Below are positions 44,120 to 52,483 of a DNA stretch of 64,000 bases, in pieces (the stretch's first letter is position 1; each line of letters begins with the position of its first letter). The notes under the pieces were generated by a model. The model had not been told where the DNA came from, did no database searches, and worked only from the letters and a program-made list of their open reading frames with translations. The position numbers and the translations under genes are program-made. Source of the stretch: Myxococcaceae bacterium JPH2 (lineage in GTDB: Bacteria; Myxococcota; Myxococcia; Myxococcales; Myxococcaceae); assembly GCA_016458225.1 (NCBI GenBank), contig JAEMGR010000001.1, forward strand, positions 930,001 to 994,000, in the 5' to 3' direction.

Positions 44120-44377
44120 ATGAAGACGATGACGAAGGCGTTCCTGGGTGCGCTGTTCCTGATGGCGACTCCCGCCCTGGCCAATGACAGCTATCACGTC
44201 TACAAGACGTCCAATGGCGAGTGTGAAATCGACACGCGCGACCACTCGAAGATGAAGGACCAGCGTGGCACGGACCAGTGTCTGGGTCACTTCAGCAACC
44301 GCACGGACGCGGAGAAGGTCCGCTCGTCGCAGGTGAAGTCTGGCTCGTGCAAGTGCCCGAGCGGGAACAACTGCTAG
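44120..44377 (+). CDS. Small secreted Cys-containing protein
   Basis: 85 residues, with GGGAGG upstream of the ATG. A signal peptide (KAFLGALFLMATPALA) is followed by a hydrophilic mature region with five Cys (GECEID, DQCLG, GSCKC, NNC at the very end), probably forming disulfides with one Cys left over. No known family. Followed by a strong hairpin between it and the kinase gene. Confidence 0.7.
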   Translation: MKTMTKAFLGALFLMATPALANDSYHVYKTSNGECEIDTRDHSKMKDQRGTDQCLGHFSNRTDAEKVRSSQVKSGSCKCPSGNNC

Positions 44378-44429: not shown

Positions 44430-45698
44430 TCAGCGGAACATCGCGGTGAACAGCGACATGCCCAGGCTCACCGCTGAGGCCAGCCCCAGCGAGAACAGCG
44501 CGCCGGTGACGAGGACCACGAGCACCGGGTGCGCATCCACCACGCGCAGCATGCGATGCAAGCCGTTCTTGAGGAGCGTGCGCTGACAGTGCACCTGGAT
44601 GCGCCCATCCAGCACGCCCTGGAGCGACGTCACCATCTCCTCCACCGAGCCGTAGCGCTGCGCGGGGTCCTTGTAGAAGCCCTTCACCACGAACCACGCC
44701 AGCTCGGCCGGCACGGGCGGTTGGTTCGTCGTGCGGTGCAGGTCCTGCATCGAGGGCAGCACCGTCTCCACGCCCTTGAAGATGTCCTCCAATGACTTGC
44801 GGCCCTCCAGGTAGTGGCGCAGGCAGAGGAACTCGTGGAACACGACGCTGAGGCTGTAGATGTCGCTGCGCACGTCCAGCGTGGCGTGACTTCCGCGCGC
44901 CTGCTCGGGGGACATGTACAGCGGCGTCCCCATCACCGTGCCCTGCTGCGTGTGCGGCGACGTGGTCTCCGGCAGGGGCAAGGCCGGCGGGGAGCCATGG
45001 CGCATGGCCACCGGAAGCGGCGGGGGCACGGACTCGGGACCGGAGCGCACGCGCCTCGCGAGACCCCAGTCCAGCACCGTCACTTCACCGAACGGGCCCA
45101 CCATGATGTTCGCGGGCTTGAGGTCCCGGTGGATGAAGCCCTTGCGGTGCGCGTAGGAGACGGCGTTGAGCACGCCGAGGAAGATTTGCATCCGCATCGT
45201 GTACGGGAAGCGCGCGTGAGCCTCCGGGTCGCCTCGGCGCAGCCTCGCGATGATGGACTCGAGCGTCTCGCCCTCCAGGTGCTTCATCACGAAGAAGTAC
45301 CGGCCGCGCTCATCCACGCCCACGTCGTGCAACGGGACGATGTTCGGATGGTCGAGCTGGCCGACGATGCGAATCTCCTCCACGAAGCGCAGCACCCGGT
45401 CCATGTCCGCGCCCGGGTGCATGCGCTTGAGGGCCACCTGACGGTCGATGTCGTGGTCCTGGAGCAGCACGACCTCGCCCATGCCTCCCTGGCCCAGGGG
45501 ACGGACCTCCTCGAAGCGCTCGCGCGCGAAGGGGACCACGGCGGGCTGCGCGCCCTTCCACTCCACACGCGGCAACACGGTGTTGCGCGGCGCCGCGGAC
45601 GGCGTGCCCAGCGGTGCTTCATGGGAGGAGCCCGAGGACAGCAGCGTGTCCTCGTGACCCACGTCGGTGGCAGGGTGCTCCAGGAGCGTGTCGGCCAT
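44430..45698 (-). CDS. Membrane-anchored Ser/Thr protein kinase
   Basis: 422 residues from the ATG at 45698. Hanks-type kinase domain ~62-370: GQGGMGEVV glycine loop, Lys91 (VALKRM), HRDLKPAN (190-197), DWG in place of DFG (210-212), then GTPLYMSPEQA and DIYSLSVVFHEFL. A hydrophobic helix near the C-terminus (LVVLVTGALFSLGLASAV) anchors it, with almost nothing beyond, so there is no external sensor domain. It lies 51 bases downstream of the response regulator gene on the same strand, probably the last gene of the VWA-kinase-regulator run. Confidence 0.93.
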   Translation of the reverse strand: MADTLLEHPATDVGHEDTLLSSGSSHEAPLGTPSAAPRNTVLPRVEWKGAQPAVVPFARERFEEVRPLGQGGMGEVVLLQDHDIDRQVALKRMHPGADMDRVLRFVEEIRIVGQLDHPNIVPLHDVGVDERGRYFFVMKHLEGETLESIIARLRRGDPEAHARFPYTMRMQIFLGVLNAVSYAHRKGFIHRDLKPANIMVGPFGEVTVLDWGLARRVRSGPESVPPPLPVAMRHGSPPALPLPETTSPHTQQGTVMGTPLYMSPEQARGSHATLDVRSDIYSLSVVFHEFLCLRHYLEGRKSLEDIFKGVETVLPSMQDLHRTTNQPPVPAELAWFVVKGFYKDPAQRYGSVEEMVTSLQGVLDGRIQVHCQRTLLKNGLHRMLRVVDAHPVLVVLVTGALFSLGLASAVSLGMSLFTAMFR

Positions 45699-45749
45699 GG
45701 CCCCTGAAATAGCAGGCCGTCTCGCGGCACGCATCCCGCACCCGGGTTT

Positions 45750-46466
45750 TCACGCCGGCGCGGCGCCTTCGCCCTCCACCTCCAGCCGATAGCCCACGCC
45801 TCGCACCGTCTGAAGACAGAAGCGCGACGCGCTGTTCCATCGCAGCTTGCGCTTCAGGCTGGAGACGAAGTTGTCCACGGTGTGAGGATCCACCACCACG
45901 TCCGTCCCCCACACCGCGTCGAGGATTTCGTCGCGCCGCAGCGCGCGCTCCCGCTCGCGGATGAAGAAGGCCAGCAGGTCGAACTCCTTGCGCGTCAGCT
46001 CGATGGCCTCGCCAGACGGGTGCTCCACCCGGCGCCCGGCGAGGTCCAGGGTGTAGCCCGCGAAGCGGACCGTCTTCGCCTGCACGCCTCCCGCGCGGCG
46101 CACCAGCGCGCCCACGCGCGCCAACAGCTCGCGCAGACGATAGGGCTTGCCCAGGTAGTCCTGCGCACCGGACTCGAAGCCGCGCACCACGTCGTCCTCC
46201 AGCGTCCGCGCGGTGAGCATCATCACCGGCACCGTGGCGCCCTCGTCCCGCATGGCCCGGCACAGCGAGTAGCCGTCCCCGTCCGGGAGCATCACGTCCA
46301 GGAGGATGAGCTGGAATCCGCGCCGGGACAGATGCTCGCGGGCCTCGCGCACCGAGGTCGCCTCCTCCACGACATAGCCACCCTGGTGCTCCAGGTTGTC
46401 GCGCAGCGCGAGCCGCAGGTTCGGATCATCCTCGACGACGAGGATGGCGGGGGATGAAGCAGTCAT
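45750..46466 (-). CDS. OmpR-family response regulator
   Basis: 238 residues. Receiver domain with VVEDDPNLR, phosphorylatable Asp in LILLDVMLPDGDGYSL, Thr in MMLTART and Lys in QDYLGKPYRL; winged helix ending TVRGVGYRLEVEGE. Its start lies one base after the histidine kinase stop, so they are co-translated. Likely DNA site: the TTCATCAT direct repeat upstream of the first gene of the run. Confidence 0.93.
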   Translation of the reverse strand: MTASSPAILVVEDDPNLRLALRDNLEHQGGYVVEEATSVREAREHLSRRGFQLILLDVMLPDGDGYSLCRAMRDEGATVPVMMLTARTLEDDVVRGFESGAQDYLGKPYRLRELLARVGALVRRAGGVQAKTVRFAGYTLDLAGRRVEHPSGEAIELTRKEFDLLAFFIRERERALRRDEILDAVWGTDVVVDPHTVDNFVSSLKRKLRWNSASRFCLQTVRGVGYRLEVEGEGAAPA

Positions 46467-46467
46467 G

Positions 46468-48291
46468 TCAGCGCTCCGGAAAACTCAGCTCGAAGGTGGT
46501 GCCCTCGGGGCTCGATGCGGCGACCCGCAGCGAGCCGCCGTGCAGCGCGGCGATGCGTCGACAGAGCGAGAGCCCCAGGCCACTGCCTGGAACGTCTCGC
46601 CTGCCCACGGAAGGCAAGCGACGGAACTCGTCGAAGACGTGCTCCCACTCGGACTCGGGGATGCCCACGCCATTGTCCGAGAAACGCAGGCGACCGCCCG
46701 GAAACACTTCCACGCGCAGGCACACGGGGTCGCGCGTGTTGTACAGACAGGCATTGCGCCCCAGGTTCGCCAGGAGCAGGCGCAGCAACTGCGCGTCGCC
46801 ATTCAGCCCATGGTCGCCCACGTCCGCGGACAGGGACACCGGCACCTGGGTCCAGCCCTCCAGGTCCTGGCGCAGCCCCGCGAGCAGTTCGTCCCAGCGC
46901 ACCGGCGCGAGCTTGGGCGTCCAGCGCCCCTTGTCGATGCGATTGAAGGACAGCAGGTTCTCCACCAGGAAGCCCAGACCGTCCGCCTCGCGAATGATTC
47001 GCGCGGGGTAATCCCTGGCGCCCGCGCCCTCCGCCACCCGCCACTCCAGCGTCTCCGCGAGCAGGCGAATGGAGGCGAGCGGCGTGCGCAGCTCGTGGGA
47101 GACCGTGGCGACGAAGTCGCTCTTGAGTTCAAGGAAGCGGTGCTTCCGGTGCTGCGCCAGGAATGCCAGGCCCGCGATGACGAACGCGAGCACCGCGCAC
47201 ATCCCCACCATGAAGGACTTCAAGGCATGACGCCGAGCAAGGGCCGCCTCACCCCGCGCCCACAGGGGTGACTCGACGGAGACCGGCAACGACGCAAGCA
47301 GGAGCACGGGCTCATCCCCGGGCAGCGTCACCGTCCCGTCCTCGCTCAAGAGCCCTCGCTCCCGCATCTCGCGGGTGAGCGCTTCCAAATGGGCGGGCAC
47401 GTTCACCGTGACGCCTCGCACGATGGCGCCTCGGTCCGGCTCCAGGTACCAGCCGGACCGCGCCAGGACGGGCCCGTCGATGTGCTCCGGCAGGTCCAGG
47501 GGCGCGGTCGCGAGTTCCTGGGCGCGCGCCTCGAAGTCATCAGCTGGAATGCCCAGGCGCATCGACAACGTGGTGATGCGCTCGCGGAGGAACTGGAAGT
47601 CCGCCGCGGTGAGCTTCGAGCGCTTGAGCAACAACAAGCGCTGCAACCCCTCCATCCCCACCGAGCCCGGCCCGCCGCGCCAGCCCTCTCGCACCATCGC
47701 CCGCATCACGTCAGGCAGCAGGCCCCCCTGGGCGGCCACGCGCTCCACCACGAGCAGGAGCGAAGGCAGGTCCCGAGAGGAGGCCAGCATGTAGTGCGTT
47801 CGGTGAAAGAAGAGCGCGCCCAGGGCCTGCATCGTCGCCGCGGTCCGGCCCTTCACCGCCAGCGCGCGCTCCACGCTCTTCATGAGCGCGAGGCGCTCGG
47901 CCCAGGGCCCCTCGCCGGCCTTCGTCACCTCCGTGCCAGCGCGCAGCCGCGCGTAGCGGTCCTGCGCTGGCGCCCCCTTGGCCGGGCTGAAGCGCGCGAG
48001 CCGAGGGAGGAGTTGCTCATCATGTTCGCGCAGGTAGAGCCCGGTGGCGGGCAGCAGCGGCTCCCACCGAGCGGCCTCCAGCGAGTGACGAACGCCCTCC
48101 AGCTCCCGCCGCAAGGACTGCCGCAGTGAGGCCCGGGCATATTGCTCCAGGGCCTCGCGCTGGGAGCGCAGCGCCGCGCGCGCGTCGTCGCGCTCGTCGA
48201 TGAAGATGCTCTGGAGGCTCCACAAACCCACCCCGAGCCCGGCGAGGCCGAGCACGAGGGCAATCAGGGTGGGCAACAGCCGGCGAGTCAT
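46468..48291 (-). CDS. Sensor histidine kinase with large periplasmic domain
   Basis: 607 residues. Membrane helices at ~7-27 and ~355-378 enclose a periplasmic sensor of more than 300 residues, mostly helical. The kinase core follows: LKSDFVATVSHELRTPLAS with His399, NLGRNACLYN (N box), SDNGVGIP and GSGLGLSLCRRIAALHGG. Transcribed 12 bases after the VWA gene and directly before the response regulator. The VWA protein may feed into the sensor domain; that is inference from gene order. Confidence 0.93.
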   Translation of the reverse strand: MTRRLLPTLIALVLGLAGLGVGLWSLQSIFIDERDDARAALRSQREALEQYARASLRQSLRRELEGVRHSLEAARWEPLLPATGLYLREHDEQLLPRLARFSPAKGAPAQDRYARLRAGTEVTKAGEGPWAERLALMKSVERALAVKGRTAATMQALGALFFHRTHYMLASSRDLPSLLLVVERVAAQGGLLPDVMRAMVREGWRGGPGSVGMEGLQRLLLLKRSKLTAADFQFLRERITTLSMRLGIPADDFEARAQELATAPLDLPEHIDGPVLARSGWYLEPDRGAIVRGVTVNVPAHLEALTREMRERGLLSEDGTVTLPGDEPVLLLASLPVSVESPLWARGEAALARRHALKSFMVGMCAVLAFVIAGLAFLAQHRKHRFLELKSDFVATVSHELRTPLASIRLLAETLEWRVAEGAGARDYPARIIREADGLGFLVENLLSFNRIDKGRWTPKLAPVRWDELLAGLRQDLEGWTQVPVSLSADVGDHGLNGDAQLLRLLLANLGRNACLYNTRDPVCLRVEVFPGGRLRFSDNGVGIPESEWEHVFDEFRRLPSVGRRDVPGSGLGLSLCRRIAALHGGSLRVAASSPEGTTFELSFPER

Positions 48292-48303
48292 TCGGAGGGA
48301 GAC

Positions 48304-50517
48304 CTACTTGATGCGGGGCGCGCGGTCGAAGTCCATTCCGCGAACGGGGACGATGGACTCGAAGCGGTCGTCGCGCTTGTCGAGCGAGCGGGTGGTCCGG
48401 ATGAGCGCCCCCAGCGTCTTCACGTCGGGCCGGTCCTTCAGCGCGGGCCCCAATCCCTCCCACAGTCCGATGAGGCGGTCATAGGTCAGCGGGCGAATCC
48501 AATACGAGCCGCGCAGCTTCTCGGCGAACGCCGCCGCCACATAGGCCAGACGCGTGGTGGGAGCAGCAGCCTCAAACGAGGACCGCATGGCCTCGGAGGG
48601 GAGCGGAACCTCCAACGGCTTCGAGGCGCCTCCCTCCGGTGCCTTGAAGCGAACGCGGAACATCCCCAGGGGCAAGTTGGGCGCGCGGAGCTTCACCTCG
48701 TAGAGCGCGGTCACTTCGTGGCCCGCGCCCACCTCCCCCGCATCCACCTTGTCGTCCGCGAACTCCTGCCGCGTCAGGGCCCGGTTCTCGTAGCCGATGA
48801 GGCGATAGCGAGACACGACCGCGCGGTCGAACTCCACCTGGAACTTCACATCCTTGGCCACGACCTGGAGCAGGCCCGTGAGGTTCTGCACGAAGATGCG
48901 CCGCGCCTCCTCCAGCCGGTCCACGTAGGCGTAGTTGCCCTCCCCAACCTGGGCCAGACGCTCCATCAGGACGTCGTTGTAATGGCCCATGCCAAAGCCC
49001 ACCGTGGACAGGGTGATGCCCTGGGCCGCCTGATCCTTCACCCGAGCCCAGATGCCATCCGCATCGGTGACGCCGTTGTTCGCCACGCCGTCCGAGCAGA
49101 GGATGACGCGGTTGATGCCACCCTCCACCCGGTTGCGCGCCGCCAGGGCATAGCCCAATTCCAGACCCGCCTGCGCGTTGGTGGAGCCACCGATGGACAC
49201 GGAGTCGATGGCGGCGTGCAGCGTCTGTTTCTCGGTGGCGACCGTGGGCGCGAGGACCTCTCGCGCTTCACTGCCATACGCGACGATGGAGATCCGATCG
49301 CGCGCGTCGAGCGCATCCACCAGCAGGTGCAGCGCGCGCTTCACGAGCCCCAGTCGCTCGCTTCCGTCCATGGACCCCGAGACATCGATGACGAAGACCA
49401 GATGGCTCGGCTTGCGCTCCGCGGCGCGGACCTCCGGCGCCTTCACGCCGATGCGCAGGACCCGGTAGCCAAAGCGCGCGGGGGACGGAAAGCCCTCCAC
49501 GCTCACGGTGAACGGGGCATCGCCCCCGTTGACGTAGCCATACTCGAACGCGTTGATGAACTCCTCGACTCGCACGGCGCGCTCGTCTGGGAGCGCGGAC
49601 CGTTCGAGATAGGCACGGGTGAGCGAGTACGAGGCCGTATCGGTGTCCACGGAGAACGTGGAGAAGCGCTGCTCCTCCGTGTCCACGGTGGGATTCACGC
49701 CGTAGCCCTTGAAGTACATGTCACTCAAGGGCGGGGCTGTGGCCACCGGTTCGGAGTGACCGGGCACGGGCTCGCTGGGACGCGGTGCGCGGAACACCGT
49801 CTGAGGCGTGCCATCCGGAATCACCACCGGCATGAGCGGCACGGCCCAGTCGGGCGCGGCGTCACGACTGCTGTTGCTGCCTCCATCCGTGAGCCGCTCG
49901 ATTTCGGCGAGGCCATCGAACTCGCGATTGCGCTTCTGGGAGGTCGGTTGAGAGAGAGGTCCCGGCAGCAGAGGACTGCCATGCATCGGGTAGGACACAT
50001 CGTCCGGGCTCAGTCCTTCAACTATCTTCTCAAGCAGCGCATCGTCCTGCTGCCCCTCCTTGCCCTCCGGCTCGCTAGCGATTCGGTGGATGAGTTCCTG
50101 GTCTACCGTCGCTCCCGGAACCGTGGAGCGAACATCCTCCGTGGGCGCATCCGCACTCTCGAACACCTCGGACACGAGCTTCAGCGCGATGTTGATTCGG
50201 ACGACTCGGCCCGCTCGGAGCCGGACGCCCGTTCGCTCCACCACGGCGAAGCCTGCCTTCTCGAATCGGAGGGAGTAGGTCCCCGGCAGCAACTGGGGGA
50301 CTCGATAGTCACCCGTGGCATTCGTCATCACGGTCTGAGCGCCCATGGGCGACGTCGCGACCACGACGACAGCCGACTCCCCGTTCGGATTCCGCGCGCT
50401 GGTGACCCGGCCCAGTAGGACGCCGGCCGCGGCCTTCCCCGCCTCGCCTTGCGCCCAGGCGGGCGAGACGAAGAGCAGGATCCACGCGCACAGGGCACTT
50501 CGAAACACGAACCTCAT
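48304..50517 (-). CDS. Secreted von Willebrand factor A protein with carboxypeptidase-regulatory-like N-terminus
   Basis: 737 residues from the ATG at 50517, giving a signal peptide (FRSALCAWILLFVSPAWAQ). A CarboxypepD_reg-like beta sandwich follows (~30-110: GRVTSARNPNGES... TNATGDYRVPQLLPGTYSLRFEKAGF), then a disordered Pro/Ser linker, a YfbK-type N-terminal segment (STFSVDTDTASYSLTRAYL), the VWA domain with MIDAS Asp378-x-Ser-x-Ser (IDVSGSMDG) and a DUF3520-like C-terminus. Periplasmic or outer-membrane-associated; binds a protein partner via metal. First gene of the run with the two-component system and kinase. Confidence 0.88.
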   Translation of the reverse strand: MRFVFRSALCAWILLFVSPAWAQGEAGKAAAGVLLGRVTSARNPNGESAVVVVATSPMGAQTVMTNATGDYRVPQLLPGTYSLRFEKAGFAVVERTGVRLRAGRVVRINIALKLVSEVFESADAPTEDVRSTVPGATVDQELIHRIASEPEGKEGQQDDALLEKIVEGLSPDDVSYPMHGSPLLPGPLSQPTSQKRNREFDGLAEIERLTDGGSNSSRDAAPDWAVPLMPVVIPDGTPQTVFRAPRPSEPVPGHSEPVATAPPLSDMYFKGYGVNPTVDTEEQRFSTFSVDTDTASYSLTRAYLERSALPDERAVRVEEFINAFEYGYVNGGDAPFTVSVEGFPSPARFGYRVLRIGVKAPEVRAAERKPSHLVFVIDVSGSMDGSERLGLVKRALHLLVDALDARDRISIVAYGSEAREVLAPTVATEKQTLHAAIDSVSIGGSTNAQAGLELGYALAARNRVEGGINRVILCSDGVANNGVTDADGIWARVKDQAAQGITLSTVGFGMGHYNDVLMERLAQVGEGNYAYVDRLEEARRIFVQNLTGLLQVVAKDVKFQVEFDRAVVSRYRLIGYENRALTRQEFADDKVDAGEVGAGHEVTALYEVKLRAPNLPLGMFRVRFKAPEGGASKPLEVPLPSEAMRSSFEAAAPTTRLAYVAAAFAEKLRGSYWIRPLTYDRLIGLWEGLGPALKDRPDVKTLGALIRTTRSLDKRDDRFESIVPVRGMDFDRAPRIK

Positions 50518-50594
50518 CGGGGCGACCTCAGCGCGACGGGAGGAGGACATCATCCCGAGCACGCCCACAGCAAACCGCATGTGCTGCTCGTCAC

Positions 50595-50613
50595 TTCATC
50601 ATCGTTTCATCAT
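50595..50613. promoter_or_regulatory. Direct repeat TTCATCAT x2 upstream of the VWA operon
   Basis: TTCATCAT at 50595-50602 and 50606-50613, an 11-bp period, 78-96 bases upstream of the VWA gene. Period and placement suit an OmpR-type regulator, and one is encoded in the operon. A nearly identical site lies at 52214-52232. Confidence 0.5.
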
Positions 50614-51797: not shown

Positions 51798-52483
51798 GCG
51801 GCAAGACTGTCTTTCCAGCCATGGGCCCCCATGCGAGACCCAACTGGGGACAGCGCCACGTCAAAGCGCCGCACCCAGTTGGGCCTCAGCCCCGCCGCCC
51901 TCACGAATGACTTGAAGCCCCTCGCCTCTCCCTCTCGGAGTGATCGCCCCCTCGGCGACTCCGTGATGACGTCCTCCCGCTTCGCATTCGCCTCCGTGCG
52001 CCGCTCCCCTCCAAGGACTGGGAGAACACGCTCACGGAGCCCCAACGAGCGACTGCTTCAGCTCGTCACTGCTCACCGTCCCCGCGGCACTCGCCATTCC
52101 TCCAGACAGCTCCAACGAATGCACAGGGGAGCCTCATGACGACCGCCTCGGAGCAGGTGATGTCGCATCATTGGCAGGCCGGCCGTCTCCGTGCCTCACG
52201 AGAACATCCTCGCTTCATCATCGTTTCGTCATACGTGAACCGGACGTCCGGGAGTGAGCGTCCGCAGCATGGACGCGTCTCGCCGCTGTGCTGCCGCGGA
52301 CTCTCGCGACTTCCCAGCGCGCTCTACTCAGTGTCTGTCTTTGGGCTGTGGCTCGGCGAATCTTCCATGCCGTGATGCCGCGTGGCAGCCTTGCAGAAAA
52401 GAACGAAGCTATCAACTTGCGCGTGTCTTCCGTACTTCCGCGTGTGACCGGGGTTCTTCCGGTCCATCCAGGAGACATCCGCA
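51798..52483. other. Long intergenic region with the second TTCATCAT site
   Basis: 686 bases between a methyltransferase and an alpha/beta hydrolase gene, both plus. Small frames on both strands lack ribosome sites and coherent composition, so I call no gene. It contains the direct repeat at 52214-52232. The hydrolase ribosome site AGGAG is at 52470-52474. An untranslated RNA or a decayed gene is possible. Confidence 0.4.
52214..52232. promoter_or_regulatory. Second copy of the 11-bp direct repeat
   Basis: TTCATCAT at 52214-52221 and TTCGTCAT at 52225-52232, again with an 11-bp period and with flanking bases shared with the 50595 copy (CTTCATCATCGTTTC, CGTG after it). It lies 252 bases upstream of the alpha/beta hydrolase gene and has the opposite orientation relative to the downstream gene compared with the first copy. 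Confidence 0.45.

Follow-up and report, generated by a model that had tools for sequence, protein, structure and literature searches.

A probable autoregulated envelope two-component system encoded with a YfbK-like exported protein in Myxococcaceae

Three adjacent genes in Myxococcaceae bacterium JPH2, coding for a YfbK-like exported VWA protein, a sensor histidine kinase (HK) and an OmpR/PhoB-family response regulator (RR), appear from sequence comparison to be a conserved co-oriented operon, whose order and spacing are kept beyond chance. This triad is probably a two-component system of the envelope that regulates itself and, in addition, a small set of exported proteins. We infer that a predicted 18-bp direct-repeat box at the head of the operon is bound by the triad's own regulator.

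Gene arrangement in the window

The window, i.e., the whole stretch of 64,000 nucleotides that was analysed, belongs to a genome of 9.0 Mb; the only other genome of the host genus is G014. Gene calls were made with a simple codon-score caller. Four genes are co-oriented on the minus strand (50517..44430) and separated by gaps of 12, 1 and 51 nt, just as the earlier note had them; all are minus-strand ORFs, and their domains were confirmed with Pfam. The features of this run are the following:

48304..50517 (alternative 48304-50580), minus strand: YfbK-like exported VWA protein with signal peptide
50179..50418, minus strand: CarboxypepD_reg (CarbReg) domain (PF13620) of the VWA protein (Pfam)
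49459..49722, minus strand: vWF_A (PF12450), the N-terminal YfbK domain, present also in VWA-less relatives (Pfam)
48910..49401, minus strand: VWA domain with intact MIDAS, the segment lost once in genus g19 (Pfam)
48310..48870, minus strand: YfbK_C (PF12034) region, present also in VWA-less relatives (Pfam)
46468..48291, minus strand: sensor histidine kinase, 607 aa, with two TM segments (Pfam HisKA and HATPase_c)
47221..48201, minus strand: periplasmic sensor domain of the kinase, ~327 aa, between the two hydrophobic segments
45750..46466, minus strand: OmpR/PhoB-family response regulator with recognition-helix region VDPHTVDNFVSSLKRKL (Pfam Response_reg and Trans_reg_C)
44430..45698, minus strand: membrane-anchored Ser/Thr kinase, the downstream neighbour (Pfam Pkinase)

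The VWA gene start at 50517 opens a good signal peptide (MRFVFRSALCAWILLFVSPAWA) and is preferred because the alternative start at 50580 sits just 15 nt past the box described below. PF12450 and PF12034 both scored above gathering and flank the VWA domain, which places the window protein in the YfbK family; its MIDAS motifs (DVSGS, GST and SDG) are intact by eye. In the histidine kinase, the phospho-accepting His motif (SHELRTP) is intact by eye and N/G boxes are present; no HAMP domain was matched by Pfam. By sequence, the HisKA and HATPase_c domains of the kinase and the REC and Trans_reg_C domains of the regulator make an OmpR/PhoB-type pair, which stays below the NCBIfam equivalog cut-offs for PhoB (TIGR02154; regulator, 187.9 vs 296.2 bits) and PhoR (TIGR02966; kinase, 108.2 vs 334.2 bits). 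The Ser/Thr kinase has an intact HRDLKPAN motif by eye, carries DWG in place of DFG, and ends with a hydrophobic segment with no domain beyond it. An in-frame ATG at 45734 may extend its ORF, in which case the gap to the regulator would be 15 nt. A scan for sigma-70 promoters and terminators yielded nothing useful.

Beside the Ser/Thr kinase, a small secreted protein of 85 aa is encoded on the plus strand (44120-44377); among the loci compared, only the window genome and its sister carry this gene.

Periplasmic sensor domain

The kinase was thought at the outset to possess a periplasmic domain of more than 300 residues, and ~327 residues were indeed found between its two hydrophobic segments. 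This domain matched no Pfam family, and its search against PDB sequences gave no match beyond the kinase core. Relatives, searched for with 23 sensor sequences, were found in 82 of the 96 genomes of the family and in a single one of 99 other genomes of the phylum. The AF2 model of the domain, built from four sequences only, is mainly helical (pLDDT 86, pTM 0.71); fold searches with this four-sequence model returned generic helical matches only, with none at E<=0.001 in Foldseek and a top Z of 7.6 in VIA-align. The model of the VWA protein was poor (pLDDT 58.6), and its meaningful fold matches were limited to the VWA core.

Conservation of the triad

Each protein was used as a query in a survey of 96 genomes from 26 genera of the family, and about 80 neighbourhoods were read. 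A YfbK-like gene lies immediately 5' of the orthologous histidine kinase in 68/96 genomes (13 genera), and the complete order VWA-HK-RR, with the regulator directly next, occurs in 59/96. Spacing is tight: -4 to 30 nt between VWA and HK genes in 34 of the 35 loci where the two directly adjoin, and -4 to 29 nt between HK and RR genes in 37 of 38 loci, the latter set taking in at least six HK-RR pairs of a paralogous system. Exceptions include a segment of ~700 nt between the VWA and HK genes in two g7 genomes, and the genera g26, g18 and g12, where the regulator either does not adjoin the kinase or lies past the contig end. Two g5 genomes (G024 and G026) do not have the triad.

Outside the family, one triad was found in a Nannocystaceae MAG (L175) and a second in a genome of another family (G113, L284); being present in two Myxococcota genomes beyond the family, the triad is therefore old in this phylum. 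A kinase-motif pattern scan of genome contigs returned mostly unrelated kinases and was useful for L174-L177.

Linkage of the genes had been expected to be conserved throughout the run. This holds for VWA-HK-RR, whose order and near-zero spacing are kept across genera, so that the absence of conserved linkage, which the earlier note had named as counter-evidence, does not apply to the triad; it does not hold for the Ser/Thr kinase.

A paralogous kinase-regulator pair was identified in most family members (G000:C39:38366-40911, L134-L140, L287). It is followed by a gene for a protein with a TonB C-terminal domain, and no YfbK protein is encoded in front of it. The recognition helix reads DPRTVDN in the paralogous regulators vs DPHTVDN in those of the triad.

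The Ser/Thr kinase as a neighbour

An ortholog of the Ser/Thr kinase follows the regulator directly in only 4 of 68 genomes (G000, G014, G056 and G067), and in most triad genomes it is far off or missing. Five large g19 genomes have it two genes further downstream. In g3 its place is upstream of the triad, with one intervening gene (G004, G006 and G007) or about 10 kb off (G002, G003 and G005). In g1 and g19 the triad is flanked by the genes c5-c8, coding for a VanX-like dipeptidase, QueC, a lipoprotein-like gene product and a large TPR protein. In g5 (Corallococcus-like) the Ser/Thr kinase is found beside c5-c8 and the triad at another site (L148 vs L105); the simplest reading of these neighbourhoods is that the triad moved as one unit and left the kinase at the old place. 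On this reading, we treat the Ser/Thr kinase as a neighbour. No regulator box was found at this gene in those surveyed genomes where it is unlinked. A four-gene system including the Ser/Thr kinase was rejected on the grounds of this non-conserved linkage.

In g5, a small secreted CarbReg-only protein is encoded directly 3' of the regulator, in the place of the Ser/Thr kinase (L102-L106, L173).

Direct-repeat box

Alignment of upstream regions revealed a box at the operon head, and a further copy was found upstream in the window:

50596..50613, minus strand: predicted response-regulator box ATGATGAAACGATGATGA at the operon head
52215..52232, minus strand: second copy of the box (one mismatch), not followed by any intact exported gene

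The consensus, RTGATGA-AAC[CG]-RTGATGA, is 18 bp long and consists of two 7-bp repeats with a 4-bp spacer, which gives a period of 11 bp, the architecture of ArcA/PhoB boxes (PMC3798270). The box at the operon head lies 78 nt 5' of the preferred VWA start. With up to three mismatches, three boxes were observed in the window vs 0.06 expected; with up to two, six sites were found in the own genome vs 0 with a reversed control; and with up to one, sites occur in 51/92 genomes of the family (1-8 in each), the control giving 0.

The box was detected in every surveyed triad genome of g1, g3, g5 and g19, and the two g5 genomes that do not have the triad (G024 and G026) do not have the box either. The operon starts with this box in most of the branches. 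It keeps its position at the operon head when the first gene is a different one, namely c43 in g7 and HK in one g4 genome. The paired half-sites differ by clade: TGATGA, TGAAGA (g26 and relatives), TGAG[CG]A (g7) and TGACGA (the paralogous system, in several genomes of which the variant ATGACGAAACCATGACGA precedes the TonB_C gene). The two half-sites vary in step from clade to clade, in support of a direct-repeat binding site. No box fitting the pattern was found at L115, L122, L128 and L175.

The second box of the window may be what is left of a CarbReg gene since lost, or may serve as a regulatory site at a distance; an exact counterpart is present at the matching place in a Citreicoccus genome (L094:14782). 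In g6, a genus without the triad, a near-box GTGATGAAATCATGATGA is situated 25 nt before a gene for a LysR-type regulator in three species (L340, L371 and L380), and is probably unrelated to the box of the triad.

Predicted regulon

To predict the regulon, we read the genes that follow 19 exact sites located elsewhere than at operon heads. Thirteen of these sites precede genes for CarbReg proteins, viz. Oar-type TonB-receptor-like proteins, full-length YfbK and small CarbReg proteins; two precede TPR lipoprotein genes, three are before other genes whose products seem to be exported, and the remaining site is unclear. Within the own genome, exact off-operon sites are found at two tandem CarbReg-TonB receptors (contig C9), and weaker ones before genes for a TPR lipoprotein and for a DUF4139/DUF4140 protein into which a CarbReg domain is inserted. 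One-mismatch sites form a less pure set, with several located before unrelated genes.

Some of the duplicated genes with boxes clearly share 5' sequence, and part of the shared boxes may go back to promoters that were duplicated along with related 5' ends of genes. Hitchhiking of the promoter with CarbReg genes is nevertheless unlikely to be the sole source of the box, since just 3 of the own genome's ~36 CarbReg ORFs have it (up to one mismatch), which argues that the association reflects more than family descent, and since TPR lipoproteins and CarbReg-less YfbK lipoproteins have boxes as well. The box thus yields a short list of targets that can be checked, Oar-like TonB receptors among them.

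A local expansion was seen in g19 at L143 (4.7-17.3 kb), where several small secreted CarbReg-only proteins are encoded around an unlinked full-length YfbK gene and several of those genes carry boxes.

A VWA-less YfbK protein in genus g19

In 27/27 species, the YfbK gene of the g19 operon encodes a protein of 447-511 aa with CarbReg, PF12450 and YfbK_C and without the VWA domain and its MIDAS, the PF12450 and YfbK_C domains being almost contiguous. All 27 copies fall into a single clade (100/100) in a tree of PF12450 and YfbK_C, for which one change is enough. The genes are free of internal stops, and dN/dS is about 0.25-0.4 for close pairs by a simple Nei-Gojobori count; saturation makes the values for more diverged pairs less dependable. 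A full-length YfbK paralog is present elsewhere in most g19 genomes; G062 is without a close one. The MIDAS motifs (DxSxS, T and D) are kept in every full-length protein examined. In deeper branches (g7, g9, g12, g15, g26 and others), the protein has no CarbReg domain and, judging by its N-terminus, is a predicted lipoprotein.

Since g19 has dropped the VWA domain throughout and kept the flanking domains, the metal-binding domain is dispensable at this operon in that genus and the flanks are not. The earlier suggestion that the VWA protein, as one of a metal-dependent adhesion type, could occupy the sensor domain is thereby weakened as regards an essential role of its VWA domain. A single inherited loss in one genus constitutes a natural experiment on the need for the metal site.

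Proposed mechanism and alternative readings

In the reading that we favour, the kinase would sense the state of the envelope via its lineage-specific helical periplasmic domain and, as intact motifs and family knowledge suggest, phosphorylate the regulator. The latter would bind the 18-bp repeat that heads the operon encoding it, resulting in positive or negative autoregulation, and also the boxes before unlinked YfbK, Oar-like CarbReg-TonB receptor, small CarbReg and TPR lipoprotein genes; conservation of the box is what points to such a small envelope regulon. The YfbK protein would be an output of the system itself and might in turn act on the sensor, and, because one genus has discarded the VWA domain, any feedback surface would more likely be PF12450/YfbK_C than this metal-binding domain. 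Whether the repeat might instead belong to another regulator, with the triad as one target among several, has to be considered: boxes are also found before genes unrelated to the triad, and the assignment of the box to the triad regulator is made from sequence. We nevertheless consider this improbable, as box and triad co-occur and disappeared jointly in g5, the operon head keeps the box through changes of the first gene, the geometry of the box suits OmpR/PhoB-type regulators, and it changes along with the regulator in the paralogous system. Still less credible, and in our opinion very unlikely, is a system of four parts, with the VWA protein docking on the sensor via its MIDAS and the regulator being a substrate of the Ser/Thr kinase. 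It would agree with the unbroken run of the four genes in G000 and G014, with the Ser/Thr kinase adjoining the regulator in G056 and G067 and lying not far off in several genomes of g3 and g19, and with the intact MIDAS of the full-length proteins examined; against it stand the unlinked or missing Ser/Thr kinase in most triad genomes, the lack of a box at this gene where unlinked, and the VWA-less operon copy in all 27 g19 species, in which the rest of the gene is intact.

As to the YfbK protein itself, it could well be a regulated effector only (e.g., in envelope or surface remodelling) with no sensing role, sharing the operon as the main target of the regulator; we take this seriously, while rating it somewhat short of probable. 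The order target-sensor-regulator with autoregulation is common among two-component operons, and the full-length YfbK copy of g19, having left the operon, still has the box, both as expected for an effector. The same genus speaks against this view, for the VWA-less version stays directly 5' of the kinase in all 27 species despite full-length paralogs in most of them, which suggests a reason to remain with the kinase and argues mildly for a role next to it. A more specific and rather doubtful idea is that of an exported co-sensor: the YfbK protein would dock through PF12450/YfbK_C on a new type of sensor domain, the VWA domain would serve as an interchangeable metal-dependent surface probe, and the regulator would adjust CarbReg surface proteins, TonB receptors and the co-sensor itself.

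Comparison with known systems

Our search of the open-access literature found no paper on the triad, the box with its regulon or the VWA-less variant, in agreement with the earlier statement that no system with this set of genes is described. For Escherichia coli YfbK, this search found no assigned function. The conserved operon and the predicted box provide a testable regulatory context for YfbK-type proteins in the genetically tractable Myxococcus.

The triad resembles OmpR/PhoB-family systems (PhoBR, ArcA, CpxAR) in having a HisKA/HATPase kinase and a REC/winged-helix regulator. Cpx has an exported accessory partner, CpxP, and is similar in this respect too, an exported partner (there CpxP, here the YfbK-like protein) standing beside a two-component system. 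With ArcA and PhoB it shares the 18-bp direct repeat of 11-bp period (PMC3798270), here as a sequence pattern alone. Unlike those systems, it has a sensor domain with no Pfam match or convincing PDB fold match, a YfbK-like companion, a small apparent regulon of CarbReg, YfbK and TonB-receptor genes, and scores below the NCBIfam equivalog cut-offs.

E. coli YfbK has the same core of PF12450, VWA and PF12034, and its periplasmic or lipoprotein location is shared by distal relatives; the window protein and its near relatives differ by the CarbReg domain, an ordinary signal peptide and co-encoding with a two-component system, and one clade by being without VWA. Oar, a TonB-dependent transporter of Myxococcus xanthus, combines CarboxypepD_reg with a TonB-receptor barrel (PMC6434023). 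Some of the predicted targets have this architecture; they are other paralogs, however, and the likeness concerns architecture, not PopC secretion. CglB, to which the reference list of PMC12204202 points, is reported to be a VWA adhesin of myxobacterial gliding; it is likewise an exported MIDAS-bearing VWA protein from the same bacterial group. We know of no YfbK_C domain or kinase operon for CglB. Overall, the components are of known kinds; the open-access literature searched gave no precedent for bringing them together, for the box and the regulon predicted from it, or for a YfbK protein of the VWA-less form.
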